Source: Pseudooceanicola endophyticus (GTDB lineage: Bacteria > Pseudomonadota > Alphaproteobacteria > Rhodobacterales > Rhodobacteraceae). Taken from it: a stretch of DNA of 64,000 nt. This document shows positions 20,038-37,674 of the stretch, in pieces. Position numbers and translations under genes: made by a program. The notes under the pieces are model-generated. The model was not told the DNA's origin and did no database searches. It saw nothing but the letters and a program-made list of their open reading frames with translations. Every line of letters begins with the position of its first letter. Position 1 is the first letter of the stretch. The stretch spans positions 62,001 to 126,000 of the forward strand of contig NZ_JAHIAB010000005.1 in NCBI RefSeq assembly GCF_018760365.1, read 5' to 3'.

Positions 20038-20489
20038 AGATTCTTCTTCTCCATGAGGGTGGTCAGCGCATCCTGGAGGGCCTGGTAATGCGGGCCCAGC
20101 ATGTCACGGATCTGCTGCTGGTAGGCTTCGGCCAGGGGCACGATCTCGGTCAGCAGGGCGCGCCCCTTCGGGGTCAGCGACAGCTTGACCAGCCGGCGGT
20201 CCGCCTGATCGGTGCATTTCGCCAGGTATCCGGCGGCCTCCAGCCGAGCGGCGGCCCGGCTGACCTTGGATTTTTCCAGGCTCACCCGGCGCTCGATGTC
20301 GCGCACCGAGGGGGTGCCGGCATAGCCCACGTTCACCAGCACCCGCCATTCCGCCACCGAAATGTCGAAACGCGCGCGGTACTGGTCCGCAAGGTCCTTC
20401 GACAGATCGGTCGCCAGAACCGCCAGCCGGTAGGGCAGATAGCCGTCCAGATCGAATTCGGGAAGGGGCTTGCCGTTCATCTCGGTCAT
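20034..20489 (-). CDS. MarR family regulator of homogentisate catabolism
   Basis: A 151-aa winged-helix protein. The HTH is at about 55-85 (SVRDIERRVSLEKSKVSRAA) and the wing is TDQADRRLVKLSLTPKG. The start at 20489 (MTEMNGKPL) is preferred because AGGGA lies upstream; the in-frame ATG at 20519 lacks one. It is divergent from hmgA, co-transcribed with maiA, and the gap between has two perfect palindromes over a TTGACA box. It therefore very likely represses both units and is released by a pathway aromatic, by analogy with HmgR-type control; the effector is not shown. Confidence 0.9.
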   Translation of the reverse strand: MTEMNGKPLPEFDLDGYLPYRLAVLATDLSKDLADQYRARFDISVAEWRVLVNVGYAGTPSVRDIERRVSLEKSKVSRAAARLEAAGYLAKCTDQADRRLVKLSLTPKGRALLTEIVPLAEAYQQQIRDMLGPHYQALQDALTTLMEKKNL

Positions 20490-20541
20490 GCAGGTCTGTC
20501 CCTTTTCACGGTATTCCATGAGGTTGCGCGAAACTCATATC

Positions 20542-20554: not shown

Positions 20555-20557
20555 AGA

Positions 20558-20648: not shown

Positions 20649-22007
20649 GTGTATCATTCCGAACTGAAACGTGCCGACAGCAGCACCGTCACCACGACCG
20701 GCTACATGCCGGGCTTTGGCAATGATTTTGAAACCGAGGCCCTGCCCGGCGCCCTGCCCCAGGGCATGAACAGCCCGCAGAAATGCGCCTATGGTCTGTA
20801 CGGAGAGCAGCTTTCGGGCACCGCCTTCACCGCCCCCAGCCACCAGAACGAACGCACCTGGTGCTACCGCATCCGCCCCTCGGTCAAGCATACGGGCCGC
20901 TTCGCCCCGATCGACGTGCCCTACTGGAAATCGGCGCCCAACGTCGATCCCAAGGTTGCCTCCCTGGGTCAGTACCGCTGGGATCCGGTGCCCCATACCG
21001 AGGACAAGCTGACCTGGATCACCGGGATGCGCACCATGACCACGGCGGGCGATGTCTATACCCAGGTGGGGATGGCCGCGCATGTCTACCTGGTCACCGC
21101 CTCGATGCAGGACGAATACTTCTATTCCGCCGACAGCGAGCTGCTGATCGTCCCGCAGGAGGGCCGGCTGCGGCTGGCGACCGAGCTGGGCGTGATCGAG
21201 CTGGAGCCCAAGGAGATCGCGATCATCCCGCGCGGCCTGCTCTACCGGGTCGAACTGGTCGAAGGCCCCGCCCGCGGTTTCGTCTGCGAGAATTACGGCC
21301 AGAAGTTCGACCTGCCCGGCCGGGGTCCCATCGGCGCCAACTGCATGGCGAACCGGCGCGACTTCAAGACCCCCGTCGCCGCCTTCGAGGACCGCGATGC
21401 CAAAAGCCGCGTGGTGATCAAATGGCAGGGCCAGTTCCATGAGACCTGGATCGACCATTCGCCCCTCGACGTGGTGGCCTGGCACGGCAACTACGCGCCG
21501 GTGAAATACGATCTGCGCAATTACTGCCCGATCGGCGCGATCCTGTTCGATCACCCCGATCCCTCGATCTTCACCGTGCTGACCGCGCCTTCCGGCGTGG
21601 AAGGGACCGCGAACATCGACTTCGTGCTGTTCCGCGAGCGCTGGATGACCATGGAGGACACCTTCCGTCCGCCCTGGTACCACAAGAACGTCATGTCGGA
21701 ACTGATGGGCAACATCTACGGCGAATACGACGCCAAGCCCAACGGCTTTGCCCCCGGCGGCATGAGCCTGCACAACATGATGCTGCCCCATGGCCCCGAC
21801 AACGAGGCCTTTGAAAAGGCGACCTTCGCGGATCTTCAGCCCAACAAGCTCGACAATACCATGTCCTTCATGTTCGAGACCCGCTTCCCGCAGCATCTGA
21901 CCGCCTTCGCGGCGCAGGAGGCGCCGCTTCAGGACGATTACATCGACTGCTGGGACAGCCTGACGAAGCATTTCGACGGCACGCCCGAAGGCAACTGGGG
22001 CAAGTAA
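20649..22007 (+). CDS. hmgA: Homogentisate 1,2-dioxygenase
   Basis: A 452-aa non-haem Fe(II) dioxygenase that opens homogentisate to maleylacetoacetate. It starts at GTG 20649 behind GGGAGG. Family landmarks are [14 protein letters not shown] near the N-terminus, [15 protein letters not shown], and the metal site: His in [14 protein letters not shown], Glu in the same SELMG, and His in [12 protein letters not shown]. Length matches the family (about 430-450). It opens the plus-strand catabolic operon and is followed by a large hairpin and fahA. Confidence 0.96.
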
Positions 22008-22109: not shown

Positions 22110-23369
22110 ATGCCCTTCAAGACCAGCTGGGTCGCCAGCGCCAACAGCGCCCGGACCGATTTCCCCCTCGACAACCTGCCCTACGGCGTCTTCTCGAGCG
22201 CCGGCGCGGCCCCGCGCTGCGGCGTGGCGATCGGCGACATGATCCTGGATGCCGCCACCGCCGAAACCCTCGGGCTTTTGACCCTGCCGGGCGGTCCGCT
22301 GCTGCAGGCGGGCAGCTGGAACGCGGTGATGGCCGCCGGGCCGGCCACCTGGGAAGCGCTGCGCGACCGCCTGGGCGCCCTTCTGGCCGAAGGCGCCCCC
22401 GAGGCCGAGGCGCTGGCGGACCTGCTGGTGCCCCAGGCCGAGGCCACCCTGCATCTGCCCTTCACCGTCACCGAATACACCGATTTCTACGCCTCGAAGA
22501 ACCATGCGATGAATGTCGGCACGATGTTCCGCGGCCCCGAAAACGCGCTGCCGCCGAACTGGTTGTCGATCCCCATCGGCTACAACGGGCGCGCCTCTTC
22601 CGTCGTCGTCTCGGGGACCGACGTGGTGCGCCCCTGGGGGCAGTTGAAGGGCCCGAACGACGATCTGCCCCGTTTCGCCCCCTGCGCCCGCTTCGATCTT
22701 GAGCTCGAGATGGGCGCGATCGTCGGCCAGCCTTCCTCGGGCATGGTGTCGGTCGCAGAGGCGGATCAGATGATTTTCGGCTACGTGCTGCTGAACGACT
22801 GGTCGGCGCGCGATGTGCAGGCCTGGGAATACCAGCCGCTCGGCCCCTTCCAGGCCAAGGCCACCGCGACCACGATCAGCCCCTGGATCGTCACCCGCGC
22901 CGCGCTGGAGCCCTTCCGCACCGCCACGCCCGAACGCGAACGTCCCCTGCTGCCCTACCTCAGCGAACCCGGCCCGATGCTGTACGATATCGCGCTGGAG
23001 GTTTCGCTGACCCCCGAGGGCGGCGCGGAAACCGTGATCGCGCGGACCAATTACGACCAGATGTATTACTCCGCCGCGCAGCAGCTCTGCCATCACACCA
23101 CCTCGGGCTGTTCCATGCGGGTGGGCGATCTGCTCGGCTCGGGCACGATCTCGGGCACCACGAAGGACAGCCGGGGCTCCCTGCTGGAACTCAGCTGGGG
23201 CGGCAAGGAACCGTTGACCCTGCCCGACGGCACCCCCCGCAGCTTCCTGGAAGACGGCGACACGCTGACCCTGCGCGGCGCGGCGCAGGGGGACGGCTAC
23301 CGCATCGGCTTCGGCGCCTGCACCGGCAAGGTGCTGCCCGCCATCGACCTGCCCGACTGGGCGCACTAA
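22110..23369 (+). CDS. fahA: Fumarylacetoacetase
   Basis: A 419-aa hydrolase that splits fumarylacetoacetate into fumarate and acetoacetate. The short N-terminal SH3-like domain (1-115) starts SWVASANSARTDFPLDNLPY. The catalytic domain has EYTDFYASKNHAMNVGTMFR (metal Asp and catalytic His), the DLELEMGAIVG glutamates, and NDWSARDVQAWEYQPLG with the metal Asp. All key residues are present. It follows hmgA in the same operon; the next gene starts 18 bp later. Confidence 0.95.
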   Translation: MPFKTSWVASANSARTDFPLDNLPYGVFSSAGAAPRCGVAIGDMILDAATAETLGLLTLPGGPLLQAGSWNAVMAAGPATWEALRDRLGALLAEGAPEAEALADLLVPQAEATLHLPFTVTEYTDFYASKNHAMNVGTMFRGPENALPPNWLSIPIGYNGRASSVVVSGTDVVRPWGQLKGPNDDLPRFAPCARFDLELEMGAIVGQPSSGMVSVAEADQMIFGYVLLNDWSARDVQAWEYQPLGPFQAKATATTISPWIVTRAALEPFRTATPERERPLLPYLSEPGPMLYDIALEVSLTPEGGAETVIARTNYDQMYYSAAQQLCHHTTSGCSMRVGDLLGSGTISGTTKDSRGSLLELSWGGKEPLTLPDGTPRSFLEDGDTLTLRGAAQGDGYRIGFGACTGKVLPAIDLPDWAH

Positions 23370-23387
23370 CCTTGAAGGACTGACACC

Positions 23388-24338
23388 ATGGCAAAAGCAT
23401 TCGCATCCCAGGGCGACCTGGCCGAAAAGACGATCAGCTTCACCGAGGTCGGCGACGACCTCTATGCCTTCACCGCCGAGGGCGATCCCAACACCGGCGT
23501 CATCATCGGCGACGACAGCGTCATGATCGTCGAGGCCCAGGCCACCCCCCGGCTCGCGCGCAAGGTGATGGAGTGCGTGCGCTCGGTCACCGACAAGCCG
23601 ATCAGCCATGTCGTGCTGACCCACTATCACGCCGTCCGCGTGCTGGGCGCCAGCGCCTACGGCGCGCGTGAGATCATCATGTCCGACACCGCCGCCGCCC
23701 AGGTCGAGGAACGCGGCCAGGAGGACTGGGACAGCGAGTTCGGCCGTTTCCCCCGCCTGTTCCAGGGCCATGAGGAAATCCCCGGCCTGACCCGCCCCAC
23801 CACCACCTTCAGCGACCGCATGACGGTCTATCTGGGCAAGCGCCGGGTCGACATCATGACCCCGGGCCGCGCCCATACCGCCGGCGATGCGGTGATCTGG
23901 GTGCCCGACCAGGAGGTGATGTTCACCGGTGACATCGTGGAATACCACTCGGCCTGCTACTGCGGCGACGGCCATTTCCGCGACTGGCCCGAGACGCTGG
24001 CGAAGATCGCCGCCTATCAGCCGAAATCCATCGCGCCCGGTCGGGGCGACGCGCTGGTGGGGGAAAAGATGGTGGCCGATGCCATCGCCAACACCGCCGA
24101 TTTCGTCTCCAGCACCTACAAGCCGGTGGCGCGCGTGGTGGCCCGGGGCGGCACCCTGAAAGAGGCCTGGGACGCGGTGCGCGCGGAATGCGATCCGAAG
24201 TTCGCCAACTATGCGATCTACGAACACTGCCTGCCCTTCAACGTCGCCCGCGCCTATGACGAGGCCCGCGGCATCGACACCCCCCGCGTCTGGACCGCCG
24301 AGCGCGACCAGCAGATGTGGGCCGCGCTGCAGGGCTGA
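23388..24338 (+). CDS. Metallo-beta-lactamase-fold protein with altered metal motif
   Basis: A 316-aa protein of the MBL superfamily. The usual HxHxDH metal motif is H79-Y-H81-A-V-R84 here, so the Asp and the third His are missing. A later His (GRAHTAGDAV, about 158) and Asp in FTGDIVEY remain. It would therefore keep at most part of the dinuclear site. Its place between fahA and the aromatic hydroxylase, 18 bp after fahA, ties it to homogentisate catabolism. No reaction can be assigned; hydrolysis of a pathway ester/thioester or detoxification of a side product are possibilities. No signal peptide. Confidence 0.82.
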   Translation: MAKAFASQGDLAEKTISFTEVGDDLYAFTAEGDPNTGVIIGDDSVMIVEAQATPRLARKVMECVRSVTDKPISHVVLTHYHAVRVLGASAYGAREIIMSDTAAAQVEERGQEDWDSEFGRFPRLFQGHEEIPGLTRPTTTFSDRMTVYLGKRRVDIMTPGRAHTAGDAVIWVPDQEVMFTGDIVEYHSACYCGDGHFRDWPETLAKIAAYQPKSIAPGRGDALVGEKMVADAIANTADFVSSTYKPVARVVARGGTLKEAWDAVRAECDPKFANYAIYEHCLPFNVARAYDEARGIDTPRVWTAERDQQMWAALQG

Positions 24339-24455
24339 GGATCCCTGCCGCGAGGATGATCAGACAGTGACCCGGAGCGCTGCGGCGCTCCGGCCTAGAC
24401 GCCGGGCGGCCCGCCAGCGGCCTCTTCCGGCATGTCCAATGGGAGGACCCGATCC

Positions 24456-26292: not shown

Positions 26293-26331
26293 AGTCGCAG
26301 GGGATGAGGAGGATCCCCTGCGGCTCTTTTC
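26293..26331 (+). terminator. Intrinsic terminator of the hmgA operon
   Basis: Fourteen-base stem GAGTCGCAGGGGAT / ATCCCCTGCGGCTC (one G-T pair), short loop, then TTTT. It ends the hmgA-fahA-MBL-hydroxylase-DUF2783 unit and separates it from the AraC gene. Confidence 0.85.
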
Positions 26332-26372
26332 GCCGGACCACACGGGCCGGCACGGAACTGAGGGAGGAAACA

Positions 26373-27332
26373 GTGCAAAGTCTCAGCACGCAAAGAATAC
26401 CGTCCAAGGACATCCTGGCCTACTGGAGCGACGTGGTCTGCCGGACCTATGCGCCGGTGACGGCCGATTTTCCCACCGACCGCCCCTTCGCGGCGCGTCT
26501 CGACATCAAGCAGATCGGGCGCACCAGCCTGACCCGGGTGCGTTCCAGCGATGCACTTTACCGGCGTACCCCGGACAATATCCGCACCAGCCAGACCGAC
26601 GATTACCTGCTGGCGCTGCCGCTGAAGGGGCAGCAGGCGTTTTCCCAGGCCGGGCGCACCACCCGCCTGGGGGCCGGCGATCTCTGCCTGATCGACACCG
26701 CCCGCCCCTATGACCTCAGCTGCGAGGATTACGAGGCGCTGCATCTCAAGGTGCCGCGCGCCGAGCTGGACCTGCGCCTGCCCCGCGCCGAGGCGGTCTC
26801 GGCGATGCGGGTGGCGGCGGCGGGGCGCTATGCGCGGCTTGCCTCCACCATGCTGCGCGCCACGATGGAGACGGTGGACAGCAATGACAGCGCTCCGCTC
26901 ATGCTGTCCTCGACGCTGATCGACCTGGTGGCACTGGCCTTCGACGAATGCTTCAACGGCATCAGCGAGGGCGACGGGCGCTACGGGCGCATCGTCGAAC
27001 AGGCCCAGGCGATGATCCGGGAGCGCCTGTTCGATCCCGATTTCGACGTGGCCTGCGTGCCCTCGGCGATCGGGGTCTCGGCGCGCACGCTCAGCCGGGC
27101 CTTTGCCCAGCGGGGCATCACGCCGGCGAAATGGATGTGGGGGCAGCGCCTGGAGGCCGCGCGCACCATGCTGCGTACCGGCAACGGGCGCCACAGCGTT
27201 TCCGAGGTGGCGATGAAATGCGGCTTCAACGATTTCTCGCATTTCAGCCGGGCCTTCAAGGCGCGCTACGGCCAGACGCCAAGCGCGACCCTGGGCGAGG
27301 GGCGCTGCCCCGAGGTCGCGCCGCTGCATTGA
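26373..27332 (+). CDS. AraC family regulator
   Basis: A 319-aa activator. The GTG start at 26373 has GGGAGGAAA just upstream; the in-frame ATG at 26304 lies inside the preceding terminator stem and is unlikely. Residues 1-190 form the AraC-binding-like (cupin) sensor typical of regulators of aromatic catabolism. The double HTH occupies about 215-315 with VSARTLSRAFAQRGITPAKW and MKCGFNDFSHFSRAFKARYG. It lies at the end of the homogentisate region and may activate the hydroxylase operon in response to the aromatic substrate; that target is inferred from position. Confidence 0.88.
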   Translation: MQSLSTQRIPSKDILAYWSDVVCRTYAPVTADFPTDRPFAARLDIKQIGRTSLTRVRSSDALYRRTPDNIRTSQTDDYLLALPLKGQQAFSQAGRTTRLGAGDLCLIDTARPYDLSCEDYEALHLKVPRAELDLRLPRAEAVSAMRVAAAGRYARLASTMLRATMETVDSNDSAPLMLSSTLIDLVALAFDECFNGISEGDGRYGRIVEQAQAMIRERLFDPDFDVACVPSAIGVSARTLSRAFAQRGITPAKWMWGQRLEAARTMLRTGNGRHSVSEVAMKCGFNDFSHFSRAFKARYGQTPSATLGEGRCPEVAPLH

Positions 27333-27461: not shown

Positions 27462-28229
27462 TCACCGGGCGACGAAGCCGCCGTCGATGGACAGGATGGT
27501 GCCGGTGGTGAAAGAGGCCGCATCCGAGAGCAGCCAGGCAATGCCCTGGGCCATGTCCTCGGGCTCTCCCCAGCGGTTCATCGGGTGGTTGGCGGCGCCG
27601 GCCTTGTAGGCCTCGCTGTCCTTCTGGATCGACAGCCCCTGGTCCGAGATCATCGGCGTGTAGGTGAAGCCCGGCGCGATGGCGTTGATGCGGATGCCCT
27701 GCTCTGCCACCTCGAGGGCGGCGGCCTTGGTGGCCCCCGAGACGCCGTGCTTGGCGGCGGTATAGGCGACGAAGTTCGCCCCCGCCGTCAGCCCCCAGAT
27801 CGAGGAGGTGTTGACGATGGCGCCGCAACCGGCTGGTACCATCACCTTCAGCTCTTCCTTCATGCAGGAGATCACCGCCATCAGGTCGATGTTGACGATG
27901 CTGCGCGCCGCCTCCAGGTCATAGTCCACCAGCGGGCCGATCGGGCCGGTGATCCCGGCGTTGTTCACCCCGTAATCAAGCTTGCCGTAGGTCTCGACCG
28001 CGGTGGTGACTGCGGCGGCAATGTCCTCGTCCCTGGTGACGTTGCAGACCGCGATGGTGGCCATCCCGCCCTCGGCCTCGATCTCGGCCTTCACGACGGA
28101 AAGCTTCTCGGCGTTCATGTCTGCCAGCACCACCCTGGCCCCGCGCCGCGCCAGAAGCTTGGCGGTGGCGGCCCCGATGCCCGATGCGCCGCCGGTGACC
28201 AGCGCGACCTTGTCTTCGAAATCCTTCAT
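27462..28229 (-). CDS. Short-chain dehydrogenase/reductase
   Basis: A 255-aa classical SDR. It has TGGASGIG at 12-19, the NAD-preferring Asp in VVLADMN, NNAGITG at about 90-96, catalytic Ser in NTSSIWG and YTAAKHG (Y-x3-K) at about 157-163, and C-terminal ILSIDGGFVAR. It is the last gene of the five-gene minus-strand operon with SnoaL, OYE, GMC and binding protein. It would oxidise or reduce a hydroxyl/keto group of the imported compound; the substrate is not identifiable. Confidence 0.9.
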   Translation of the reverse strand: MKDFEDKVALVTGGASGIGAATAKLLARRGARVVLADMNAEKLSVVKAEIEAEGGMATIAVCNVTRDEDIAAAVTTAVETYGKLDYGVNNAGITGPIGPLVDYDLEAARSIVNIDLMAVISCMKEELKVMVPAGCGAIVNTSSIWGLTAGANFVAYTAAKHGVSGATKAAALEVAEQGIRINAIAPGFTYTPMISDQGLSIQKDSEAYKAGAANHPMNRWGEPEDMAQGIAWLLSDAASFTTGTILSIDGGFVAR

Positions 28230-28250
28230 CTCTGCTCTCTCCCTCGAAGT

Positions 28251-28676
28251 TCAGAACGGGCTGTCCAGCACGCCGTCAAGGCGCGTGATCAGCCAGGCGT
28301 CGCCCTGCTTGGTCAGGTCGACCTCGTAATAGCCGGCGGTCAGCAGCTTGGTCTGGCCGCCCTCGCTGGAGGACAGGGCGACGTTGCACACGAGGCTCGC
28401 GCTGCTGTCGTCCTGCGCCCGCACGATGACATTCATCGTATTGTGTCGCCGCTGATCGGTCTGGGCGTCGCGGATCGACTTCAGGATCGAGACGATCTGG
28501 TCGCGCCCCTGCATCGGGCCCCACTTGATGTCGGTGCCGGTGACGACGCCGCCGCTGGTGGCGTCCTCGGTGAAGACGCTGCCCAGCATGTCGAAATCGT
28601 TCATGTCATAGCCCCAGGCATAGCGGGCAACGGCCTCGGTCATCAGGGCACGGTCGGCCATGGTCTGCGTGGTCAT
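28251..28676 (-). CDS. SnoaL-like (NTF2 fold) protein
   Basis: A 141-aa cone-shaped NTF2-fold protein. The N-terminal helices MTEAVARYAWGYDMNDFDML are followed by FTEDATSGGVVTGTD and a beta sheet with the histidine-containing RRHNTMNVIV. Families with this fold include SnoaL cyclases, ketosteroid-isomerase-like enzymes and ring-hydroxylating beta-like subunits. Located 21 bp before the SDR, it probably isomerises, dehydrates or binds an intermediate; this is inference from fold and context. Confidence 0.8.
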   Translation of the reverse strand: MTTQTMADRALMTEAVARYAWGYDMNDFDMLGSVFTEDATSGGVVTGTDIKWGPMQGRDQIVSILKSIRDAQTDQRRHNTMNVIVRAQDDSSASLVCNVALSSSEGGQTKLLTAGYYEVDLTKQGDAWLITRLDGVLDSPF

Positions 28677-28715
28677 GGGATACTCCTCCTTGGATGGTCT
28701 GCTGCGCGGGCCGCC

Positions 28716-29825
28716 TCAGGCGGGCTGGGTCTCGGCCAGCGCGGGGTAATCGGTGTAGCCAAGCGCGCCGGCGGCGTACCAGCCCTCGGGGCGCGGATCG
28801 GCAAGCGGGGCGCGCTTGGCGATGCGGGTGACAAGATCGGGATTGGCCAGGAAGCCGCGCCCGAAGGCCACGGCCTGCACCTGTCCGGTGGCCAGCAGGT
28901 CGCTGCCCTGTTCCGGGGTCAGGCCGCCATTGCCGATGATCGGCCCGGCGAAATGCGGGCGCAGCGCCGCCAGGATCCGGTCGCGCGCCGGGTTGCCGAA
29001 CCAGCCGTTCATGTCGGCAAAGTGCATGTAGCCCGCACCCAGCCCCTGCATCCGCTGCGCCAGATCGCTGTAGGTGGCGTGGGGGTCGGCTTCGCGGGTG
29101 TTGTTGTAGGCCGCATAGGGCGATACGCGGATGCCGATGCGGCCCGGCGCAAAGCTTTCGGCGATGGCGGCGAAGCTTTCGGTGAGGAAGCGGGCGCGGT
29201 TTTCCAGCGAGCCGCCATAGGCATCCTCGCGGGTGTTCAGCACGCCCGAGAGGAACTGGTGCGGCAGGTAGCCGTTGGCGGCGTGGATCTCGACCCCGTC
29301 GAAGCCGGCAGCCTTCGCCCGGGCGGCGGCGCGGCCGAAATCGGCGATGGTGCGGTGGATGTCGTCCAGGGTCATGGCACGCGAGGGGGTCGCCATGATC
29401 TTGGCATAGCTGCCGTTCGCCAGCCCGGCATAGACATCCACCATGCCCGGATCATCGTTCACCCCGCTGGGCGACAGCGGCGCCTGCCCGCCCAGCAGCG
29501 CCGCCGCCCCGGCCCGCCCGCAATGCCAGAGCTGGCAGAAGATCCGCCCGCCCTCGTCATGCACGGCCTCGGTGATCGGCTTCCAGGCCTCGACCTGGGC
29601 ATCGGTGTAAATGCCCGGAGCGTATTCGAAGGCGCAGGTTTCGGCGTTGACATAGGTGCCCTCGCTGATGATCAGTCCGGCCGAGGCACGGGCGCGGTAG
29701 TACTCGCGCATGATCGGCTGGGGTACGCCCTCGCGGCTGGCGCGCGCGCGGGTCAGCGCCGGCATGACGATGCGGTTGGGCAGCTCCAGGTCGCCGATCT
29801 TCAGGGTGTCGAAATAGGTGCTCAT
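28716..29825 (-). CDS. Old Yellow Enzyme family FMN alkene reductase (NemA-like)
   Basis: A 369-aa FMN TIM-barrel reductase. It begins with DLELPNRIVMPALTRARAS, has the FMN-site GRIFCQLWHCGR, the active-site GVEIHAANGYLPHQFLS (His and Asn of the OYE pair) and GSLENRARF, and ends with GGLTPEQGSDLL. OYEs use NAD(P)H to reduce activated C=C bonds of enones. It lies 21 bp after the GMC gene and 39 bp before the SnoaL gene. An alpha,beta-unsaturated carbonyl made by the GMC enzyme or SDR would be a natural substrate. Confidence 0.92.
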   Translation of the reverse strand: MSTYFDTLKIGDLELPNRIVMPALTRARASREGVPQPIMREYYRARASAGLIISEGTYVNAETCAFEYAPGIYTDAQVEAWKPITEAVHDEGGRIFCQLWHCGRAGAAALLGGQAPLSPSGVNDDPGMVDVYAGLANGSYAKIMATPSRAMTLDDIHRTIADFGRAAARAKAAGFDGVEIHAANGYLPHQFLSGVLNTREDAYGGSLENRARFLTESFAAIAESFAPGRIGIRVSPYAAYNNTREADPHATYSDLAQRMQGLGAGYMHFADMNGWFGNPARDRILAALRPHFAGPIIGNGGLTPEQGSDLLATGQVQAVAFGRGFLANPDLVTRIAKRAPLADPRPEGWYAAGALGYTDYPALAETQPA

Positions 29826-29846
29826 GGGATCCTCCGGTCTTGTCCG

Positions 29847-31493
29847 TCAGGCGGTTTCGAAGCGCGGCGCGGGGGCCTCGCCTTGCAGGGAGCGGCCGCG
29901 GATCAGGTCCGCCGCCTTCTCGGCGATCATGATGATCGGGGCGGTGGTGTTGCCGCGCGGGATGATCGGCGCGACAGAGCCATCGACGATGCGCAGCCCC
30001 TCGGTGCCGCGCACCCGCAGTTCCGGATCGACCACCGTATCCGCCCCCGACCCCATGGCGCAGCTGGAGGTCGGATGCAGGCCGATCTTGACGTGATCGA
30101 GCACGTAATCGGCGATTGCCGCACGATCCGCACCCACCGCCGGGCCGGGCAGGCTTTCGCTGTCCACATAGGCTTGCAGCGACGGCGCGGCGCAGATCTG
30201 CCGCGACAGCTCGATCCCGTTGACCAGCGCGGTCAGGTCGGTCTCGTGCAGGAAGTTGGTACGCACCACCGGCATGTCGGCGGGATCGGCGCTGCGCAGG
30301 GTGATTTCTCCGCGCGAATGGCAGGTCAGGCACAGCGGCGCGAGCGAAAAGCGGTGATCCTCGGGGATCGGATCGCCCCAGCCTGCCGAAGAGACCGCCA
30401 GCGCGTTCAGCTGGATCTCGGGGCGGCCATCGCCGTCGAAGTCGAAATAGCCCCCCGCCTCGACCACGTTGGAGGCCAGCGGCCCGTGCCGGAACAGCAG
30501 CCATTCCAGCCCGTTGCGGATGCGGTTGAAGCCACGGTCCTGCCCGTAGAGGCTGACCGGCTGCTTCAGTGTCATGTCGTAGGGCACCATGGAGTGATCC
30601 TGGTAGCCGCGCCCGACGTTCTCGGACGCCACGCGGACCTCGATGCCGTGGCGCTTCAGCTGATCCACCGGGCCGATCCCGGAAAGCATCAGCAGTTTCG
30701 GGGTCATCAGCGTGCCGGCGCTCAGGATCACTTCGCGCGCCGCCCGCACCACCTCTTCGGAGCCATCGGGCCGGTGCAGCGCCACGCCGACCGCCCGCCG
30801 CCCCTCCAGCAGGATGCGGTTCACCCGGGACGAGGGGCGCACCACAAGGTTCTCTCCGCCCCGCGCCAGGAAGCTGCGCGCGGTGCTGGAACGCTCTCCG
30901 CGATAGCTCATGGTCTGGTAGTAGCCCGCACCCTCCTGGATGGCGCCGTTGAAATCATGGTTGAACGGGATCAGCTGGTTGCGCCCCGGCAGGGTGGTTT
31001 CCTGGGCGGCGCGCACGAAGGCTTCGGTCAGGACATGGCGATGCACCCCGTCGGAAACCCGCATCGGCCCGCTGGCGCCGTGATAGCGCCCCGACAGCCT
31101 GGCATTGCTTTCCGAGCGGCGGAAATAGGGCAGCACCTCCTCGTAGCTCCAGCCCGTGCAGCCCATTGCAGCCCAGTCGTCGTAATCCGCGTGCTGGCCG
31201 CGCGAATAGCACATCGCATTGACCGAGGTGCCCCCGCCCAGGGTCCGCCCCTGCATCACCACCAGTTCGCGGTCGTGGCAGCCGGGTTCGGGTTCGGTGT
31301 GGAACAGGAAGGTGCGCTCGGTGCCATGGGTGCGGAAGAAGCCGCCATTGGCCTTGATGAACAGGCTGCGGTCGTCGGGGCCTTCCTCCAGCACCAGCAC
31401 GCGGGTGCCGGGATCCTCGGCCAGGCGGGCCGCGACGACGCTGCCCGCCGCCCCCGATCCGATCACGATGTAGTCGTATCTTGCGTCGCTCAT
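29847..31493 (-). CDS. GMC family FAD oxidoreductase (choline/alcohol dehydrogenase-like)
   Basis: A 548-aa flavoprotein. The ADP-binding DYIVIGSGAAGSVVAARLAE is at about 6-25, GMC signature 1 lies in GRTLGGGTSVNAMCYSRG, and signature 2 in SAGTLMTPKLLMLSGIGP. The C-terminal active-site histidine is in GLHPTSSCAMG, with RGNTTAPIIMIAEKAADLI last. It oxidises a primary or secondary alcohol. No signal peptide. Directly downstream of the binding-protein gene, it probably acts first on the imported substrate. Confidence 0.92.
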   Translation of the reverse strand: MSDARYDYIVIGSGAAGSVVAARLAEDPGTRVLVLEEGPDDRSLFIKANGGFFRTHGTERTFLFHTEPEPGCHDRELVVMQGRTLGGGTSVNAMCYSRGQHADYDDWAAMGCTGWSYEEVLPYFRRSESNARLSGRYHGASGPMRVSDGVHRHVLTEAFVRAAQETTLPGRNQLIPFNHDFNGAIQEGAGYYQTMSYRGERSSTARSFLARGGENLVVRPSSRVNRILLEGRRAVGVALHRPDGSEEVVRAAREVILSAGTLMTPKLLMLSGIGPVDQLKRHGIEVRVASENVGRGYQDHSMVPYDMTLKQPVSLYGQDRGFNRIRNGLEWLLFRHGPLASNVVEAGGYFDFDGDGRPEIQLNALAVSSAGWGDPIPEDHRFSLAPLCLTCHSRGEITLRSADPADMPVVRTNFLHETDLTALVNGIELSRQICAAPSLQAYVDSESLPGPAVGADRAAIADYVLDHVKIGLHPTSSCAMGSGADTVVDPELRVRGTEGLRIVDGSVAPIIPRGNTTAPIIMIAEKAADLIRGRSLQGEAPAPRFETA

Positions 31494-31512
31494 GAAATCC
31501 TCCTTCGGGATG

Positions 31513-31551
31513 GGGCCCGGGCAGCCCCGAGGGGGCGGGGCGCCCGGGCAT
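31513..31551. other. Intercistronic GC hairpin between binding protein and GMC genes
   Basis: Repeats of GCCCGGGC at 31515-31522 and 31542-31549 can pair across a GC-rich loop, about 30 bp past the binding-protein stop on the minus strand. Likely a stabiliser of the binding-protein message, as at 10351. Confidence 0.4.
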
Positions 31552-31580
31552 CCGGCCCCCGAAGGGACCGACTGCGGGGC

Positions 31581-32702
31581 CTACTGGCCCAGCATCGCCT
31601 TGAAGGCCTCACGGCTGAGGTAGGAGGAGCCGAAAGAGGCATCCATCGGCAGATCGCGGTCGCAATGCGGCGCCAGTTCGGGATCGTCGGACAGGCTGTC
31701 GGCAATCACCGTCGGTTCGATGATGCTGGGTTCGGTGTCGTCGATGCCGTTGTGATGGGCGAGGCCCTTGCGCAGCGCCAGACGGGTCTGCCAGGTGCCG
31801 CCGCTGAGGGTCAGGAACTGGAAGCCGGGCTCCTTGTCCTTCACGTCCTCGTAAAAGCAGTGCACCTCGTTGGCATCAACACCGGTGACGGCGACCAGAG
31901 GGCGCCCGGCATTCTGGAAGGCGCGCACCGCCCCCATGACGCCGGTGATGTAATCCGACAGCAGAAGGTCGATATGGTCGTACTTGCCCAGCAGCGCCGA
32001 GGTGGCCGAGGTATATTGCGCCGGATCCCAGTTGGTCACCACCGGGTCCTGAAGCACCTTGATATCGGGGTTCGCATCGAAGACCGGCTGCCAGCCCTCC
32101 CGGTAGCTGAGCGTCGGCTGGGCGCCGGGCGTGCCGCCAAAGGGCAGGACGTTGCCCTTGCCGTGCAGGTACTTCACGGCCCATTCGCCCCAAAGCTTGC
32201 CCTCGGCCTCAAGGTCCAGGGTGACGCGGGAATCGTAATTCACCCCCAGCTTCGCGGGCAGCGTGGTGCCGGTGTTGTACAGCACGACAGAAGCCCCGGC
32301 CCGGCGCGCCGCCTGCATCGCCCGCAGGTTCGACTGCACGAAGTCGAAGGACACCAGGATCACGTCGTAGCCCTGCGCGGTCAGCGACTGGATGTCCTGG
32401 ATCTGCTGCTCGGGGTTGCCGCCGGCATCGGTATAGGCGACCTGGGTGATGTTGGGGCACTTGGCGGCCTCGTCCTCGAACTCGGCTCGGGCGGTCTTGC
32501 GCCAGGTGTTGCCGCCCCAGCCGTCCGACAGGGCGACGCGGATCGGCTTGGTGCCGCAGAACTGCTTGATGTCCTGGAACTCGGCCTCGGTGCCGACCTT
32601 GTCGGGCGCGAGGTCGAGGGCGCGGCCCTGGACCGGTCCGAGCGCCAGAAGGGCGGCGGTGGCACAGCCGAGCGCAAGGCCCGTCCGGCGAATGGATGTC
32701 AT
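31581..32702 (-). CDS. Sugar-type ABC transporter substrate-binding protein (periplasmic binding protein type I)
   Basis: A 373-aa periplasmic receptor with a Sec signal (about 1-28, cleaved after GRA). The mature part shows the RbsB/XylF-like fold: DIQSLTAQGYDVILVSFDFV, an ARRAGASVVLYNTGT hinge strand and VAVTGVDANEVHCFYE. It is longer than RbsB (about 290), closer to binding proteins for larger or non-sugar ligands. It is first in the minus-strand enzyme operon and divergent from its permease and ATPase. The ligand is unknown; the enzyme set argues for a hydroxylated, possibly cyclic, compound rather than a simple hexose. Confidence 0.9.
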   Translation of the reverse strand: MTSIRRTGLALGCATAALLALGPVQGRALDLAPDKVGTEAEFQDIKQFCGTKPIRVALSDGWGGNTWRKTARAEFEDEAAKCPNITQVAYTDAGGNPEQQIQDIQSLTAQGYDVILVSFDFVQSNLRAMQAARRAGASVVLYNTGTTLPAKLGVNYDSRVTLDLEAEGKLWGEWAVKYLHGKGNVLPFGGTPGAQPTLSYREGWQPVFDANPDIKVLQDPVVTNWDPAQYTSATSALLGKYDHIDLLLSDYITGVMGAVRAFQNAGRPLVAVTGVDANEVHCFYEDVKDKEPGFQFLTLSGGTWQTRLALRKGLAHHNGIDDTEPSIIEPTVIADSLSDDPELAPHCDRDLPMDASFGSSYLSREAFKAMLGQ

Positions 32703-33049
32703 GGTGGTTCCTCCCGTTGCATTGGCAGCCCCCGGCGCTTCGCGGCTCCTCCAGAGCGTTTCGGCTCTCCGCTTTTGGGAAGGCCGGGATGCGGCTGCCT
32801 CCTGACGCTAGTGCGGGTCGGGGGCGGGGCGCTTGACTGACGCCGACAGTCGCTTGATCGCGGCGGCCAATCTCGCAGAGCGGGAAATACGTTTGCGTAT
32901 GGTCCGGAGGGCTGTCCGCGCCAGTCAAGGGAATGACGGCGCCAGACAAGCGGGGCCACAACCTCAGGGCTAGCCTTGCAGATCATGCCGGGTCCGACAG
33001 GGGCCCGTTCGCACCCCGGGAGGACGGGGCGCACCCCAGGGAGGACAAC
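32703..33049. promoter_or_regulatory. Divergent promoter region of the orphan importer
   Basis: About 347 bp between the binding-protein and permease genes, with no gene. It contains GACTG N7 CAGTC (32835-32851), next to TTGACT and CTTGAT boxes, and ATACG N4 CGTAT (32887-32900). A CGTAT half-site also occurs just before the MarR gene at 36652. These are candidate sites for that regulator. Confidence 0.4.
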
Positions 33050-34057
33050 ATGACAAACCAGACGACAAGGGCCCTGTCGGGTTCCGGAACCGCCGATGCG
33101 GCGGACAGCGGACAGTGGCTGCGGGCCTTCTTTCGCCGCCCGCTGGGGCGCGCGCTGGCCGGGCTTGCCGCGCTGCTGCTGATCGGCGCGCTGCTTGAGC
33201 CGCGCTCGGTCGCGCCGGCGGTGCTGCTGACGATGCTGCCCTTCGCGGCGGTGCTCTGCGTGGCGTCGGTCGGCCAGCACCTGGTGATCCAGCAGCGCGG
33301 CTTCGACCTGTCGGTCGCCGGCATCATGTCGGCTTCGGCGGTGCTGGTGACGCAGCTGGCGGCGGGTGGCGGCAGTGGCCGCCTGGGGCTGGCAGTGCTG
33401 GCGACGCTGGCCTTTGGCACCCTTGCCGGGCTGGTGAACGGGCTGCTGATCCGGGCGCTCAGGATCACGCCGCTGGTCACCACCATCGGCATGAACGCGG
33501 TGATGCTGGGGCTGGCCTACGGGCTGTCGAACGGGGTGCCCGTCTCGGCGCATCCGGTGCTGGTCGGGCTGATGAACGGTCGCCTGCTGGGGGTGCCGCA
33601 GATCGCGCTGCTGGCCCTCGTGATGCTGGCGGTGGCGGTCTTCGTGCTGGCGCGCACCCGCATGGGGCGGCAGTTCATCGCGGTGGGGGTGAACCCCGCG
33701 ACCGCCCGCGCCCTGGCCTTTCCGGTCGCACGCTACCAGGTGATGACCTATGCGCTGGCGGGGTTCGGCTTTGCCAGCGCGGCGATCCTGCTCTCGGGCT
33801 TTCTGACCACGCCGACGCTGCTGTGCGGGGTGCCCTACATGCTGACCACGGTCGCGGCCGTGGTGGTCGGGGGCAATCCGCTGAACGGCGACAAGGGCAG
33901 CCTGCCCGCAACGCTGATCGGGGCGCTGTTCCTGACCTACCTGAACCAGCTGGTGATCTCTCTGGGCTTCGCGCAGTCGATCCAGAACATCACCCAGGCC
34001 GCCATCATCCTGCTGGGCGTGGCCCTGCCCGCCGCCTTCCGCGGCACCACCCGCTGA
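33050..34057 (+). CDS. ABC transporter permease (RbsC/BPD_transp_2 type)
   Basis: A 335-aa inner-membrane protein with about 8-10 helices. ATG 33050 is chosen for its AGGGAGGA box; the frame extends upstream to 32933 without support. RbsC-like landmarks are the GFDLSVAGIMSASAVLVTQL helix, NGLLIRALRITPLVTTIGMN and GGNPLNGDKGSLPATLIGAL. It is the stand-alone partner of the permease domain fused to the ATPase in the next gene (12 bp away), so the pore is probably a heterodimer of the two. Confidence 0.9.
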   Translation: MTNQTTRALSGSGTADAADSGQWLRAFFRRPLGRALAGLAALLLIGALLEPRSVAPAVLLTMLPFAAVLCVASVGQHLVIQQRGFDLSVAGIMSASAVLVTQLAAGGGSGRLGLAVLATLAFGTLAGLVNGLLIRALRITPLVTTIGMNAVMLGLAYGLSNGVPVSAHPVLVGLMNGRLLGVPQIALLALVMLAVAVFVLARTRMGRQFIAVGVNPATARALAFPVARYQVMTYALAGFGFASAAILLSGFLTTPTLLCGVPYMLTTVAAVVVGGNPLNGDKGSLPATLIGALFLTYLNQLVISLGFAQSIQNITQAAIILLGVALPAAFRGTTR

Positions 34058-34069
34058 GAGGAGGTTGCA

Positions 34070-36550
34070 ATGACCCAGACCCCCGTCATCCGCCTGAGCG
34101 GCATCCGCAAGACCTTCGGGCGCACCGTCGCGCTGAATGGTGTCGACCTGTCGATCCGGCCCGGCGAAGTCCATGCCGTCGTGGGCGAGAACGGCGCCGG
34201 CAAGTCCACCCTGATCAACGTCGCCGCCGGGGTGCTGCGCGCCAGCGCCGGCACGATCGAGGTCGACGGCACCCCGGTTCCGGATCCCGATCCGGTCACC
34301 ATGCGCCGGCTCGGCCTGTCGGTGGCCTACCAGCACCCCGCCCTGCCCGCGCATCTGACGGTGCTGGAATGCCTGGCGCTGGTGAACCCCGACTACGGGC
34401 GCCCCGGCGGCGCCGAGCGTGCCCGCGCGCTGATCGAGCGGGTCGCCGCCCCCGGCCTGCGCATGGCGCCCACCGCCCGCGTGGCCGATCTGTCCCTTGG
34501 CCAGAAGCACGTGGCCGAGATCGTCCGCGCCCTGGCCAGCAACCCCCGCGTTCTGGTGCTGGACGAACCGACCGAACCCTTCAAGGACGAGGACGTGCGC
34601 GCCCTCTTCGAGGTGATCCGCAGCCTGCGCGCCGAGGGGCTGGCCATCGTCTACATCTCGCACCGGCTGAACGAGGTGGCGCAGATTGCCGACACGCTCT
34701 CGGTGCTGCGCGACGGGCAGATGATCACCACACGCCCCGCCGCGGAGCTGAGCCATGACGAGGTTGTCGCGCTGATCGTCGGGCAGTCCCTGGGCCAGGT
34801 GTTCCCCTCGAAGACCCCCGCCGATGCGGACGCGGCGCCGCTGTTCGAGGTTTCCGGCCTGTCCGGTCCGGGCTTTCGCGATGTCTCCCTGCAGATCCGC
34901 CCGGGAGAGATCCTGGGCCTGGCCGGGGTCGAGGGGCAGGGCCAGCGCGAGGTGATGCGTGCGCTCGCGGGGCTGGAGCAGGCGCGTTCGGGCCGGATCG
35001 CCATTGCCGGGGTGCCGGTCGATTGCGCCAGCCGCGACAGTGCCCAGAAGGCCGGCATCGGCTTCGTGCCCGATGACCGCCACAGCGAGGGGCTGTTCCT
35101 GTCGCTCTCCGTGCAGGAGAACCTGGGCCTTGGCAACATGGACGCGCTGGCCCCCGGCGGGCTGGTCGCGGGGCCGGCAGAGGCCCGGCTGGCGGACCGC
35201 GCGATCCGCGACTTCTCGATCAAGACGCCGGGGCGGGGCACGCCGGTTTCCGCGCTCTCGGGGGGCAACCAGCAGAAGGTGCTGATCGCCCGGGAGGTCC
35301 TGGCCGCCCCCCGTGTCCTGCTGATCGACGAACCCACCAAGGGCGTCGACATCGGTTCGAAAAGCGAGGTCTACTTCCACCTGCGCCGCCTCGCGGCAGA
35401 AGGCATCGCCGTGCTGGTCGCCTCTTCCGACGGGGTGGAGCTGGAGGGGCTGTGCGACCGGGTGCTGGTGTTCAGCCGCGGTCAGATCAGCGCCGAGCTG
35501 TCGGGCGATCAGGTCAATGACGAGGCGATCACCGCCGCCAACCTGCAATCGACCTCCCGCCGGGAGGGGCGGGCCGAGGCGCGGCGCGGCCCCTCTCTGC
35601 GTGCGCGCATCGCCGGGCACGATCACTTCCCGGTGCTGGTGCTGACGGTGCTGGCCGCCGCGATTTCGGTCTGGGCCAGCAGCGCGAACGGCAATTTCCT
35701 GTCGGCCTACAACATCGGCATCTTCCTGTCGTTCCTGAGCGTTCTGGCCTTCATCTCCTTCGCGCAGCTGGCGGTGATGCTGGTCGGAGAGATCGACTTT
35801 TCCCTGGGTCCCATGGCCGGGCTGGTGGTGGTGGTCGCCTCCTTCTGGCTGCCGGATGGCAATGGCGCCGGGGCGCTCGGGCTGGGAGCGGTCGGGATCC
35901 TGGCGCTGACCACGCTGATCGGCGCGGTGCAGGGGCTGCTGATCATCTGGCTCAGGCTGCCGTCCATCGTGGTGACCCTGGCCTCCTTCTTCGGGCTTCA
36001 GGGGGTGTCGCTGCTGCTGCGCCCGCTTCCGGACGGGGCCATCGCCTTCGATCTCAGCACCTTCTTCACCTCGAAGCTGGTTCTGCTGCCGGTGGCGGCG
36101 GCGCTGGCGCTGCTGGCCTGCCTGGGCTTCGAATGGATGACCTTCCGCAGCCGCACCGGGCGGGCGCTGCGCGCGATCGGCTCGGACGGGGCCTCGGCCT
36201 TCCGGCTGGGGCTGCGCCGCACGGTGACGGTGCCGGCGGTCTTCGCGCTGGCCGGGCTGCTGACCGGCATCGGCGGGCTGATCCTGGCCGGGGAAGTGGG
36301 CTTTGGCTCTCCGACCACGGGGATCAACTACAGCCTGATGTCGATCACCGCCGTGGTGCTGGGGGGCGCGATCATCAGCGGCGGGCGGGGCAGTTTCCTT
36401 GCGACGCTGTTCGGCGCGATCCTGGTGCAGGTCAATGCCTCGGCCACCTCCTTCCTGCAGCTGGGGACCGAATGGCAATACCTGCTGGTCGGGCTTTCGA
36501 CGCTGCTGGGCGCGGGCTTCTACGCCCTGGCCCGGCGCCGCCCGGCCTGA
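34070..36550 (+). CDS. Fused ABC ATPase-permease (RbsA-RbsC type fusion)
   Basis: An 826-aa protein. Residues 1-250 are NBD1 with Walker A GENGAGKST at about 43-51, LSLGQ and LVLDEPTEPF. Residues 260-495 are NBD2 with a degenerate Walker A (GVEGQGQRE), SALSGGNQQKV and LLIDEPTKGVD, as usual for RbsA proteins. A basic linker (SRREGRAEARRGPSLRAR) leads to an RbsC-like membrane domain (about 520-826) with LMLVGEIDFSLGPMAG-like and GFGSPTTGINYSLMSITAVV segments. RbsA (about 500) plus RbsC (about 310) accounts for the length. Fusion of both subunits in one chain is uncommon. Confidence 0.92.
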   Translation: MTQTPVIRLSGIRKTFGRTVALNGVDLSIRPGEVHAVVGENGAGKSTLINVAAGVLRASAGTIEVDGTPVPDPDPVTMRRLGLSVAYQHPALPAHLTVLECLALVNPDYGRPGGAERARALIERVAAPGLRMAPTARVADLSLGQKHVAEIVRALASNPRVLVLDEPTEPFKDEDVRALFEVIRSLRAEGLAIVYISHRLNEVAQIADTLSVLRDGQMITTRPAAELSHDEVVALIVGQSLGQVFPSKTPADADAAPLFEVSGLSGPGFRDVSLQIRPGEILGLAGVEGQGQREVMRALAGLEQARSGRIAIAGVPVDCASRDSAQKAGIGFVPDDRHSEGLFLSLSVQENLGLGNMDALAPGGLVAGPAEARLADRAIRDFSIKTPGRGTPVSALSGGNQQKVLIAREVLAAPRVLLIDEPTKGVDIGSKSEVYFHLRRLAAEGIAVLVASSDGVELEGLCDRVLVFSRGQISAELSGDQVNDEAITAANLQSTSRREGRAEARRGPSLRARIAGHDHFPVLVLTVLAAAISVWASSANGNFLSAYNIGIFLSFLSVLAFISFAQLAVMLVGEIDFSLGPMAGLVVVVASFWLPDGNGAGALGLGAVGILALTTLIGAVQGLLIIWLRLPSIVVTLASFFGLQGVSLLLRPLPDGAIAFDLSTFFTSKLVLLPVAAALALLACLGFEWMTFRSRTGRALRAIGSDGASAFRLGLRRTVTVPAVFALAGLLTGIGGLILAGEVGFGSPTTGINYSLMSITAVVLGGAIISGGRGSFLATLFGAILVQVNASATSFLQLGTEWQYLLVGLSTLLGAGFYALARRRPA

Positions 36551-36651
36551 GGCAATCGCCGGGCCAGGGCCCCGGGCACCGTCGCCCGGGGCTTGAAACG
36601 GGTGATTTTTCTCGTATACCGGGGGATCTTTTCACCTCCGGATGCTCCGTC

Positions 36652-37116
36652 ATGCTGCAGACCTTCTTCCCCTACCAGCTTGCGGTCACCGCCGAGGCGT
36701 TCTCGCGCCACCTGGTCGAGGTGTATCAGCATGACTACGGCTTCAGCCGCGAGGAATGGCGGTTCCTGTTCCTGCTGGCCGGGGAAGAGAGCCTGTCTTC
36801 GCTGGACCTGGCGCGGCGGTCGTCGATGGACCGGGTGCAGGTCAGCCGCGCTGCCAGCCGGCTGGAGCAGAAGGGGCTGATCCGCCGGACCGTCTCGCTT
36901 CAGGACCGGCGGTTGCGGATCTACAGTTGCACCCCGAAGGGGCGTGCGCTGTTCGAAGAGGCCTATCCCCGGGTCGCGGCCCGGGCCGAGGCGATCCTGG
37001 GGCGGCTGTCGCCGGAGGAACGCGCGGCGCTGGAACTGGGTCTGAATGCCCTGCTGAACGCCGCCCGGGCCGATGCGGTCGCCGCGACGGATGCGGATCG
37101 CGATGCAGCCGAATAG
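36652..37116 (+). CDS. MarR family regulator
   Basis: A 154-aa winged-helix regulator, HTH about 45-75 (SSLDLARRSSMDRVQVSRAA) and wing SLQDRRLRIYSCTPKG. ATG 36652 is used; its Shine-Dalgarno is weak. The AT-rich stretch just upstream has GGTGA N26 TCACC arms and a CGTATACC sequence, so it may autoregulate. Placed 101 bp after the transporter fusion, it likely controls the divergent importer/enzyme units. Its stop codon directly abuts the stop of the convergent gluconokinase gene. Confidence 0.87.
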   Translation: MLQTFFPYQLAVTAEAFSRHLVEVYQHDYGFSREEWRFLFLLAGEESLSSLDLARRSSMDRVQVSRAASRLEQKGLIRRTVSLQDRRLRIYSCTPKGRALFEEAYPRVAARAEAILGRLSPEERAALELGLNALLNAARADAVAATDADRDAAE

Positions 37117-37617: not shown

Positions 37618-37674
37618 GGCGCTCTCCTGTTTGCCGGCCCGGGCTAGCATGTCCGGGCCGGGGGCGCCAAGGGA

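Follow-up and report, generated by a model that had tools for sequence, protein, structure and literature searches.

A CUT2-type importer operon and its possible link to homogentisate breakdown in Pseudooceanicola endophyticus

Gene content and control region of the locus

The studied region of the Pseudooceanicola endophyticus genome (64,000 nucleotides of contig NZ_JAHIAB010000005.1, hereafter the window, by whose positions all its features are numbered) contains, at 27462-37116, two divergent gene arms that encode an ABC importer, four enzymes and a regulator. The minus-strand arm is transcribed in the following order: a periplasmic substrate-binding protein (SBP) with a CUT2 fold and a probable non-sugar pocket (31581..32702; PF13407, Peripla_BP_4); a GMC flavin alcohol oxidase or dehydrogenase of the choline dehydrogenase type (29847..31493; PF00732 and PF05199); an Old Yellow Enzyme (OYE) similar to NemA and PETN reductase (28716..29825; PF00724, Oxidored_FMN); a SnoaL_4 protein of the NTF2 fold, probably a dehydratase or isomerase (28251..28676; PF13577); and a classical SDR dehydrogenase (27462..28229; PF13561/PF00106). 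The consecutive gaps are 87, 21, 39 and 21 bases long, and by eye each of them contains a Shine-Dalgarno-like sequence.

The plus-strand arm includes an RbsC-like permease (33050..34057; PF02653, BPD_transp_2), an RbsA-like double ATPase fused to a second RbsC-like permease (34070..36550; two PF00005 domains and PF02653), and a MarR regulator (36652..37116; PF12802/PF01047) that is below the cut-offs of the Saro_0803/HpaR-type models. The 826-aa product of the second gene, which holds two ABC_tran stretches and BPD_transp_2, and the separate permease identify the importer as CUT2 (RbsABC-type). The open frame of the permease starts at 32933; the ATG at 33050 is preceded by GGGAGGACAAC and is probably the true start, with which the divergent region is ~347 bp long. 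All genes listed in the original prediction are present as intact frames in their expected places and match Pfam families. Its separate permease and ATPase were both found, but the latter is the 826-aa fusion protein rather than an ATPase alone. The predicted region also ended before two adjoining features, a homogentisate block (19408-26087) and an AraC gene (26304-27332). On the other side, a GntK-type gluconokinase gene (37117-37650) lies on the strand opposite to the MarR gene and convergent with it. It has no relative in the 21 other genomes of the genus (1 of 22 if this genome is counted; E <= 1e-30).

The two arms share a mirrored regulatory box. Its first copy, CTTGACTGACGCCGACAG, occupies 32832..32849 on the plus strand, 201 bp from the permease start, and the second is its mirror image at 32912..32929 on the minus strand, 210 bp from the SBP start. 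The copies form an inverted repeat that pairs at 16 of 18 positions, while 100 dinucleotide shuffles of the region gave 15 at best and never 16. With up to three mismatches allowed, the box has three matches in the window, all inside the divergent region; within two mismatches, only one other site was found in the genome. The mirrored 18-base box suggests that the two divergent arms make up one regulon. The MarR protein or, less likely, the AraC protein could bind it. A palindrome in the same region, ATACG-N4-CGTAT, was discarded as a candidate MarR operator, as it has five other perfect sites in the genome. A promoter scan found nothing.

Binding protein and importer family

The SBP matches PF13407 with 129.5 bits (cut-off 35.1), and its AlphaFold2 (AF2) model has a pLDDT of 89.7. 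The model aligns with CUT2 SBPs with Z of 25-28 over 267-301 residues and a root-mean-square deviation of 2.2-3.3 (49 of the 50 matches shown). The solved relatives among these 50 matches are 13-23% identical to it and include the myo-inositol-binding structure 4irx. The protein is far below the cut-offs of curated NCBIfam models of sugar SBPs (for ribose, xylose, galactofuranose, allose and rhamnose), the best being YtfQ (47 vs 510), followed by XylF (44.6 vs 389.6) and RbsB (26.5 vs 337).

To collect the family of this importer, an alignment of SBPs was run against 84,980 species genomes. The scan has an exact-pattern first step and gives a lower bound. It yielded at least 39 loci, which come from Actinomycetota and from Alpha-, Beta- and Gammaproteobacteria, one distant member (28%) being from a Lachnospiraceae metagenome-assembled genome. 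A single-sequence scan of genome contigs with the SBP had found no relative, whereas the alignment-based scan did. In the SBP tree the window protein belongs to one clade (A), and a second one (B) includes the Celeribacter-type loci. The SBP alignments exclude L023, L036, L047, L051 and the lower-scoring L004-L006, and plasmid rows are present in only one of the two alignments.

The ligand pocket was compared in a joint alignment of RbsB, the family SBPs and control CUT2 SBPs, at RbsB positions D89, R90, R141, N190, D215 and Q235, which contact ribose. None of the six is kept in 24 of 37 family SBPs and one is kept in the other 13; the window protein keeps only D215. Among 40 controls, three to six contacts are kept in 29 and up to two in 11, and Escherichia coli XylF, YtfQ and AlsB keep four, five and five. 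The family replacements are mainly Phe, Ile and small residues at position 89, Thr, Ala or Val at position 90, and Phe, Gln, Glu or Leu at position 141. Position 190 is Tyr in 22 of 37 proteins (with eight gaps), and position 215 is Thr, Asp or Ser. Trp takes the place of RbsB F15 in 36 and of F164 in all 37 proteins. Some positions remain polar or charged, which counts against the homogentisate reading given below: the Q235 place is Asp or Ser in 34/37 and the F16 place is Arg in 36/37. The sugar signature has thus gone from the aligned pocket and aromatic residues are frequent, yet the pocket is not purely hydrophobic. Because the family keeps so few of the contacts that most controls retain, the importer is probably not a sugar importer, and its ligand would be a non-sugar compound that possibly bears an acidic or hydroxyl group. 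The earlier statement that the substrate is not a simple sugar is supported by this comparison and by the neighbourhoods described below. Four cysteines of the SBP (49, 82, 282 and 347) are invariant in the 37 aligned proteins and possibly form two family-specific disulfides.

Most family loci in which this gene is visible have the fused ATPase-permease frame (~820-870 aa, whole-length match). In Thioclava (L007:13128-16670) the permease, the double ATPase and the second permease form a single 1180-aa protein, an all-in-one CUT2 transporter.

Gene neighbourhoods were compared between 38 family loci (L051, with its 28% SBP, was excluded) and 40 control CUT2 loci from Alphaproteobacteria, with window proteins as the only queries for both sets and hand-set thresholds. 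The controls were chosen, mainly as the best-scoring ones, from 87 places in 13 genomes, one of the places being the window's own; two of them (L107 and L114) are short. Contig ends truncate L015, L017, L018, L020-L023, L035, L036, L047, L050 and L051, which lowers the family counts. The Celeribacter-type loci are near copies of each other, so that Fisher values overstate independence. Relatives of the window GMC, OYE and MarR were found near 10, 12 and 9 of the 38 family loci, respectively, hmgA near seven and fahA near eight; all five were absent from the 40 control neighbourhoods. AraC is not enriched (4/38 vs 1/40).

The operon appears to be accessory. No SBP relative above 33% was found in the 21 other genomes of the genus (E <= 1e-40). 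Of 394 genomes from the wider family, 10 match the family alignment at E <= 1e-90; three of them (this genome, G103, which carries L037, and G214) exceed 460 bits, while the others reach 308-322. At E <= 1e-10, no relative of the SnoaL protein is present in 393 other genomes, and at E <= 1e-150 the scored candidates from 384 other genomes of the class include none of the GMC protein.

Homogentisate genes and the proposed pathway

The block at 19408-26087, which directly adjoins the operon and was unmentioned in the original prediction, encodes homogentisate breakdown. It includes maiA for maleylacetoacetate isomerase (19408..20037, minus strand; TIGR01262, 242.6 bits), hmgA for homogentisate 1,2-dioxygenase (20649..22007, plus strand; TIGR01015, 647 bits) and fahA for fumarylacetoacetase (22110..23369, plus strand; TIGR01266, 505 bits), all over the NCBIfam cut-offs. 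These are followed on the plus strand by an MBL-fold hydrolase (23388..24338), with a 50% relative in the Variovorax cluster described below, and by an FAD-dependent aromatic hydroxylase (PRK08132; 24432..26087; NF006002, 746 bits, over cut-off). The block has its own MarR-type regulator (20034..20519, minus strand; below the cut-offs of the HpaR/BilQ models), whose relatives (52-54%) accompany hmgA in three of the six genus relatives inspected.

Among clade-A relatives, the closest one that has the same enzymes comes from Variovorax J22R133 (L013), where it occupies a ~38-kb stretch (~104.7-142.9 kb) of one contig. Its importer proteins are 51% (SBP), 56% (permease) and 57% (ATPase-permease) identical to those of the window, and its enzymes 59% (GMC), ~58% (OYE), 47% (SnoaL) and 38% (SDR, a general level). 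The same stretch contains relatives of fahA (47%), hmgA (55%), the FAD hydroxylase (51%) and the MBL-fold protein (50%), as well as two IclR regulators, CoA transferase subunits, two further OYE-family genes, EthD, SDRs and a maiA-type glutathione S-transferase. Here hmgA lies ~30 kb from the SBP gene, on the same contig as checked. The genome is 8.6 Mb long and has three hmgA-like genes; by our estimate, chance alone would bring one of them to within 31 kb of a given position in ~2% of cases. The hmgA, fahA, MBL and hydroxylase proteins are 47-55% alike between the window and Variovorax and 71-89% alike between the window and its genus relatives, so either the operon came to lie next to local hmg genes on two occasions or the link persisted while these proteins diverged. 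The locus had been called an orphan; this label finds no support, given that the enzyme and importer relatives recur together in Variovorax (SDR at just 38%; a relative of the window MarR was not found in L013) and that the importer family has 39 loci. The AraC/FeaR-like regulator beside the operon (26304..27332, plus strand; AraC_binding_2 and HTH_18) is possibly an operon member: a 34% relative lies between the GMC and SBP genes in Variovorax. It was not seen in the six hmg regions of genus relatives examined. The Variovorax OYE (L013:14938-16025) is split into two frames overlapping by 4 bases, by decay or sequencing error, just upstream of an ISL3-type transposase (16361-18037).

The family recurs with homogentisate genes in several lineages. 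fahA and/or hmgA are located within 10 kb in 8 of the 39 family loci (L029, L031, L033, L035, L037, L041, L042 and L043), all of which belong to SBP clade B. In Mesorhizobium comanense (L029, 12082-12366) the hmgA frame beside fahA has just 94 aa, and a full-length hmgA match lies on another contig. In Shinella, of clade A, a gentisate-1,2-dioxygenase-like gene (268 bits, below the cut-off of 442) is found ~11 kb from the SBP gene, in a cluster with an FAH-family hydrolase and a maiA-type isomerase (over cut-off). The neighbourhoods thus lean to cleavage of 2,5-dihydroxyaryl rings, homogentisate in the window, Variovorax and the eight loci, and a gentisate-type compound in Shinella; other relatives are found in other settings. 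The cyclitol, terpenoid or sterol fragment once suggested as the substrate finds no support.

By eye, the catalytic motifs of the operon enzymes are intact: Y156xxxK in the SDR, H181-A-A-N-G-Y in the OYE, and GxGxxG, H473 and N515 (in GNTTAP) in the GMC protein. The GMC protein is of the BetA type but is not BetA (TIGR01810, 409.9 vs 732.1; PRK02106 subfamily, 475 vs 605). The OYE (369 aa, NemA type) has PF00724 and the H-x-x-N-x-Y active site; its nearest PDB sequences are PETN reductase and NemA, and with NF007899 it scores 338 bits, below the cut-off of 403. The SDR is below the ChcB2 cut-off (206 vs 350). The SnoaL protein scores 60 bits with PF13577 (cut-off 24), and its AF2 model has a pLDDT of 84.6. 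Its family profile finds the solved structures of BaiE (3e-12), LinA, the scytalone-dehydratase-like 3ef8 and the SnoaL-like 8abv without stated function, while the window sequence alone gives no BaiE match at E <= 1. These profile relatives and residues Y19, D24 and H78, invariant in eight aligned rows, suggest a dehydratase or isomerase.

In a quick tree with few background rows and some long branches, the window and Variovorax GMC proteins form one group (100) and nine clade-B GMC proteins another (99), with other GMC proteins between them. Because these lineages are separate, GMC probably joined the importer family twice, once in the window/Variovorax lineage and once in the Celeribacter-type lineage. 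The clade-B clusters add an FAD_binding_2 dehydrogenase. Its copy in L009 is best matched by PRK06134 (796 bits, over the cut-off of 747) and scores 566 bits with the ring desaturase ChcC2, below the cut-off of 900; relatives of 73-81% are present in L029, L030, L032, L037, L041-L043 and L050. Variovorax has one in its stretch (56% identical to the L009 copy) and a second such gene just outside, at ~101-103 kb. A desaturase-type dehydrogenase in clade-B clusters fits ring oxidation and aromatisation. The predicted passage of a hydroxylated cyclic compound through an enone is plausible, with indirect support from this dehydrogenase of related clusters and from the SnoaL profile relatives.

We propose that the operon is an accessory upper pathway beside the homogentisate pathway, a reading to which gene content and neighbourhood give an even chance. 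The SBP, the permease and the fused ATPase-permease would import a cyclic non-sugar alcohol, whose hydroxyl groups would be oxidised by the GMC and SDR enzymes. The SnoaL protein would then dehydrate or isomerise the resulting hydroxy-ketone, and the OYE would reduce or equilibrate the enone. The product would be homogentisate, formed directly or through a hydroxylation step of the neighbouring FAD hydroxylase, and HmgA, MaiA and FahA would break it down. MarR would switch both divergent arms together through the mirrored boxes. The connection between the operon and homogentisate is drawn from gene neighbourhood.

A bolder version of the proposed pathway, which we think unlikely, is a route not yet described that would start from a C6-C2 ring alcohol in partly hydrogenated form, for example a plant cyclohexenone or cyclohexyl-ethanoid or a p-quinol. 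A sugar-type ABC transporter adapted to a non-sugar ligand would import this alcohol, which would be oxidised at its hydroxyls, dehydrated by the SnoaL protein and converted, with or without a desaturase, to aromatic homogentisate. If so, aromatisation of an alicycle would form the upper part of a tyrosine-type lower pathway, and the combination would have arisen at least two times, each with its own GMC lineage. On the window's 324-kb contig no desaturase-type FAD dehydrogenase was found (the other 45 contigs were not searched), so the compound imported here may already be aromatic.

Several observations weigh against the link to homogentisate, among them that no such dehydrogenase was found on this contig. 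The mirrored box was not found at the hmgA promoter in the window and genome match scans. The hmg-MBL-hydroxylase block is present without the operon in genus relatives, and therefore its adjacency in the window alone could be a coincidence. The FAD hydroxylase occurs in 9 of 22 genomes of the genus, including this one; of six genus-relative regions inspected, hmgA is present in five and MBL with the hydroxylase in five, while none has the operon (L078 has only a generic 32% ABC match, and L077 stops at a contig end). No other clade-A SBP gene has hmgA within 10 kb, and in Variovorax a distance of 30 kb is needed. A search of eight family-locus genomes gave an hmgA match in seven, but it shares a contig with the SBP gene only in Variovorax and in Rhizobium multihospitium, there on the 189477-base contig that carries L031 and L050. 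The match is on another contig in Oricola (L014), Rhizobiaceae HXMU1421-7 (L016) and Alloyangia (L048), and in Sinisalibacter (L045) its position lies beyond the extent of the SBP contig. Marinobacterium lutimaris has no hmgA at E <= 1e-60; its cluster (L030) contains GMC, aldehyde dehydrogenase, SBP, EthD, OYE-family and desaturase-type dehydrogenase genes and so must end elsewhere than homogentisate. With hmgA on other contigs or missing in relatives, the importer-GMC-OYE theme is wider than homogentisate. Within ~10 kb, relatives of the FAD hydroxylase (>=200 bits) were found in neither set of loci (0/38 and 0/40), nor, by BLAST, were relatives of the window SnoaL protein (0/38 and 0/40), although SnoaL_4 proteins of other lineages were seen in L033 and L067 (by Pfam; L067 is on the contig of L037). 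SDR is not enriched either: 8/22 vs 14/40 within Alphaproteobacteria, 21/38 vs 14/40 overall.

Alternatively, the operon may serve catabolism or detoxification of a non-sugar cyclic or aromatic compound without ending in homogentisate, the hmg block being incidental. Besides the block that stands alone in the genus, the box that is missing at hmgA, the three clade-A relatives with hmgA on other contigs and M. lutimaris, this explanation draws on importer relatives beside other pathways, such as nitrile hydratase and amidase genes in Alloyangia and MaoC, CoA-lyase and LLM genes in actinobacteria. Against it stand the co-occurrence of operon relatives with hmgA, fahA, MBL and hydroxylase genes in Variovorax and the presence of hmgA/fahA near 8/39 family loci and no control. 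We regard it as a real possibility, though one well short of even.

It is quite improbable that the importer is an ordinary one for a sugar, polyol or cyclitol, with the oxidoreductases acting on that carbohydrate. The CUT2 fold, the match to 4irx, some polar pocket residues and the gluconokinase gene that follows at 37117 would suit such a substrate, but the kinase gene comes after MarR on the opposite strand, the operon itself has no sugar kinase or isomerase, the family keeps at most one RbsB contact where the E. coli sugar SBPs keep four or five, and its neighbourhoods are enriched in OYE, GMC and hmg genes. The locus could also be a module for stress or detoxification whose OYE and SDR clear away reactive enones or quinones, with the importer attached by chance. 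This would agree with PETN and N-ethylmaleimide reductases as the nearest OYE relatives, but it is very unlikely in view of one tight operon of SBP, GMC, OYE, SnoaL and SDR genes (gaps of 21-87 bp) and with the grouping of their relatives in Variovorax.

The proposed upper pathway resembles several known systems in part. The adjacent hmgA, fahA and maiA genes form a canonical homogentisate block; to our knowledge, such a block contains no CUT2 importer, GMC, OYE or SnoaL gene, all of which would be an addition here. In bile acid 7-alpha-dehydroxylation BaiA is an SDR, BaiCD an OYE-type and BaiE a SnoaL-type protein. The window has the same trio of an SDR, an OYE-family flavoenzyme and a SnoaL-fold putative dehydratase, the profile of the latter matching BaiE, but its OYE is of the 369-aa NemA type (150 vs the BaiCD cut-off of 825) and nothing in the window points to steroids. 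In the aromatisation of cyclohexanecarboxylate (ChcB, ChcC1 and ChcC2), an SDR oxidises a ring alcohol, which is followed by desaturation to a phenol. The Celeribacter- and Rhizobium-type clusters with the ChcC2-like FAD dehydrogenase (tested on L009) are similar to this route, unlike the window, with no such dehydrogenase found on its contig and an SDR below the ChcB2 cut-off.

Import of aromatic compounds by a CUT2-type system has a precedent in Rhodococcus sp. AH-ZY2, where knockout of 4497, the SBP gene of the importer 4497-4498-4499, lowers degradation of several phthalate esters (PMC13188901). Like the window importer, this one has a CUT2-classed SBP, an ATPase and a permease, and it serves an aromatic compound; the likeness is by description, not sequence, the substrate is different, and the portion of that report considered here mentions no GMC/OYE/SnoaL/SDR operon. 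CamABCD of Rhodococcus jostii RHA1 is an ABC importer of cholate metabolites with an aromatised A ring (PMC8399759). It resembles the proposed system in the import of ring-containing, partly degraded metabolites and differs in feeding a steroid pathway rather than homogentisate. A search of titles and abstract openings found no description of the layout seen in the window. The locus would thus be a peripheral catabolic pathway that brings its own importer and combines known enzyme families in a way for which no description was found.

Sugar transport is the usual annotation of CUT2 importers, and for this subfamily the label "sugar ABC transporter" is probably wrong: it spans alpha-, beta- and gammaproteobacteria and actinobacteria, its sugar contacts are lost and ring chemistry is often encoded nearby. 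The recurrent homogentisate neighbourhood makes the question of the substrate testable and would narrow the candidates to compounds convertible to a 2,5-dihydroxyphenyl acid. Homogentisate darkens, which offers a colour read-out in an hmgA mutant.

Further arrangements of the importer family

Other members of the family are found in different surroundings. In Alloyangia pacifica (L048:5427-9919) the importer is encoded behind nitrile hydratase, isochorismatase-type and amidase genes, which suggests a nitrile or amide as its ligand and adds to the points against homogentisate. In the Rhizobiales loci L015, L016, L018 and L020-L023, a minus-strand gene of ~386-414 aa lies just before the SBP gene; the one tested (L021) is Meth_synt_2-like, and L021 also has a GCV_T/CAF17-like protein, possibly pointing to methyl-transfer chemistry. 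The actinobacterial loci L011, L038, L039, L040, L044, L046 and L049 have varying sets of cupin, MaoC, CoA-ester lyase, LLM (F420-type) oxidoreductase, EthD, NTF2 and OYE genes. They may represent a second, different pathway that uses this importer family.

With GMC and OYE as plasmid probes, five matching places were inspected. The one in Gemmobacter fulvus has hpd and an hmg block, after which come a TRAP importer, a 47% GMC relative, an SBP named TorT, a CUT2-type ABC importer and an NTF2 protein. The arrangement appears to be a looser version of the window locus that supports the homogentisate theme. Four places were rejected: Paraburkholderia has GMC, SDR and CUT2-type ABC genes, yet no annotated OYE or NTF2 gene; Cupriavidus has an OYE and an NTF2 protein without an importer of this type; and the matches in Agrobacterium and Burkholderia are without the gene set. 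A plasmid of Sinorhizobium chiapasense (L010) carries a distant 28% SBP with a fused ATPase-permease and an SDR (29604-35267), and ~11 kb from this SBP it encodes a 44% relative of the window SnoaL protein (17998-18420).

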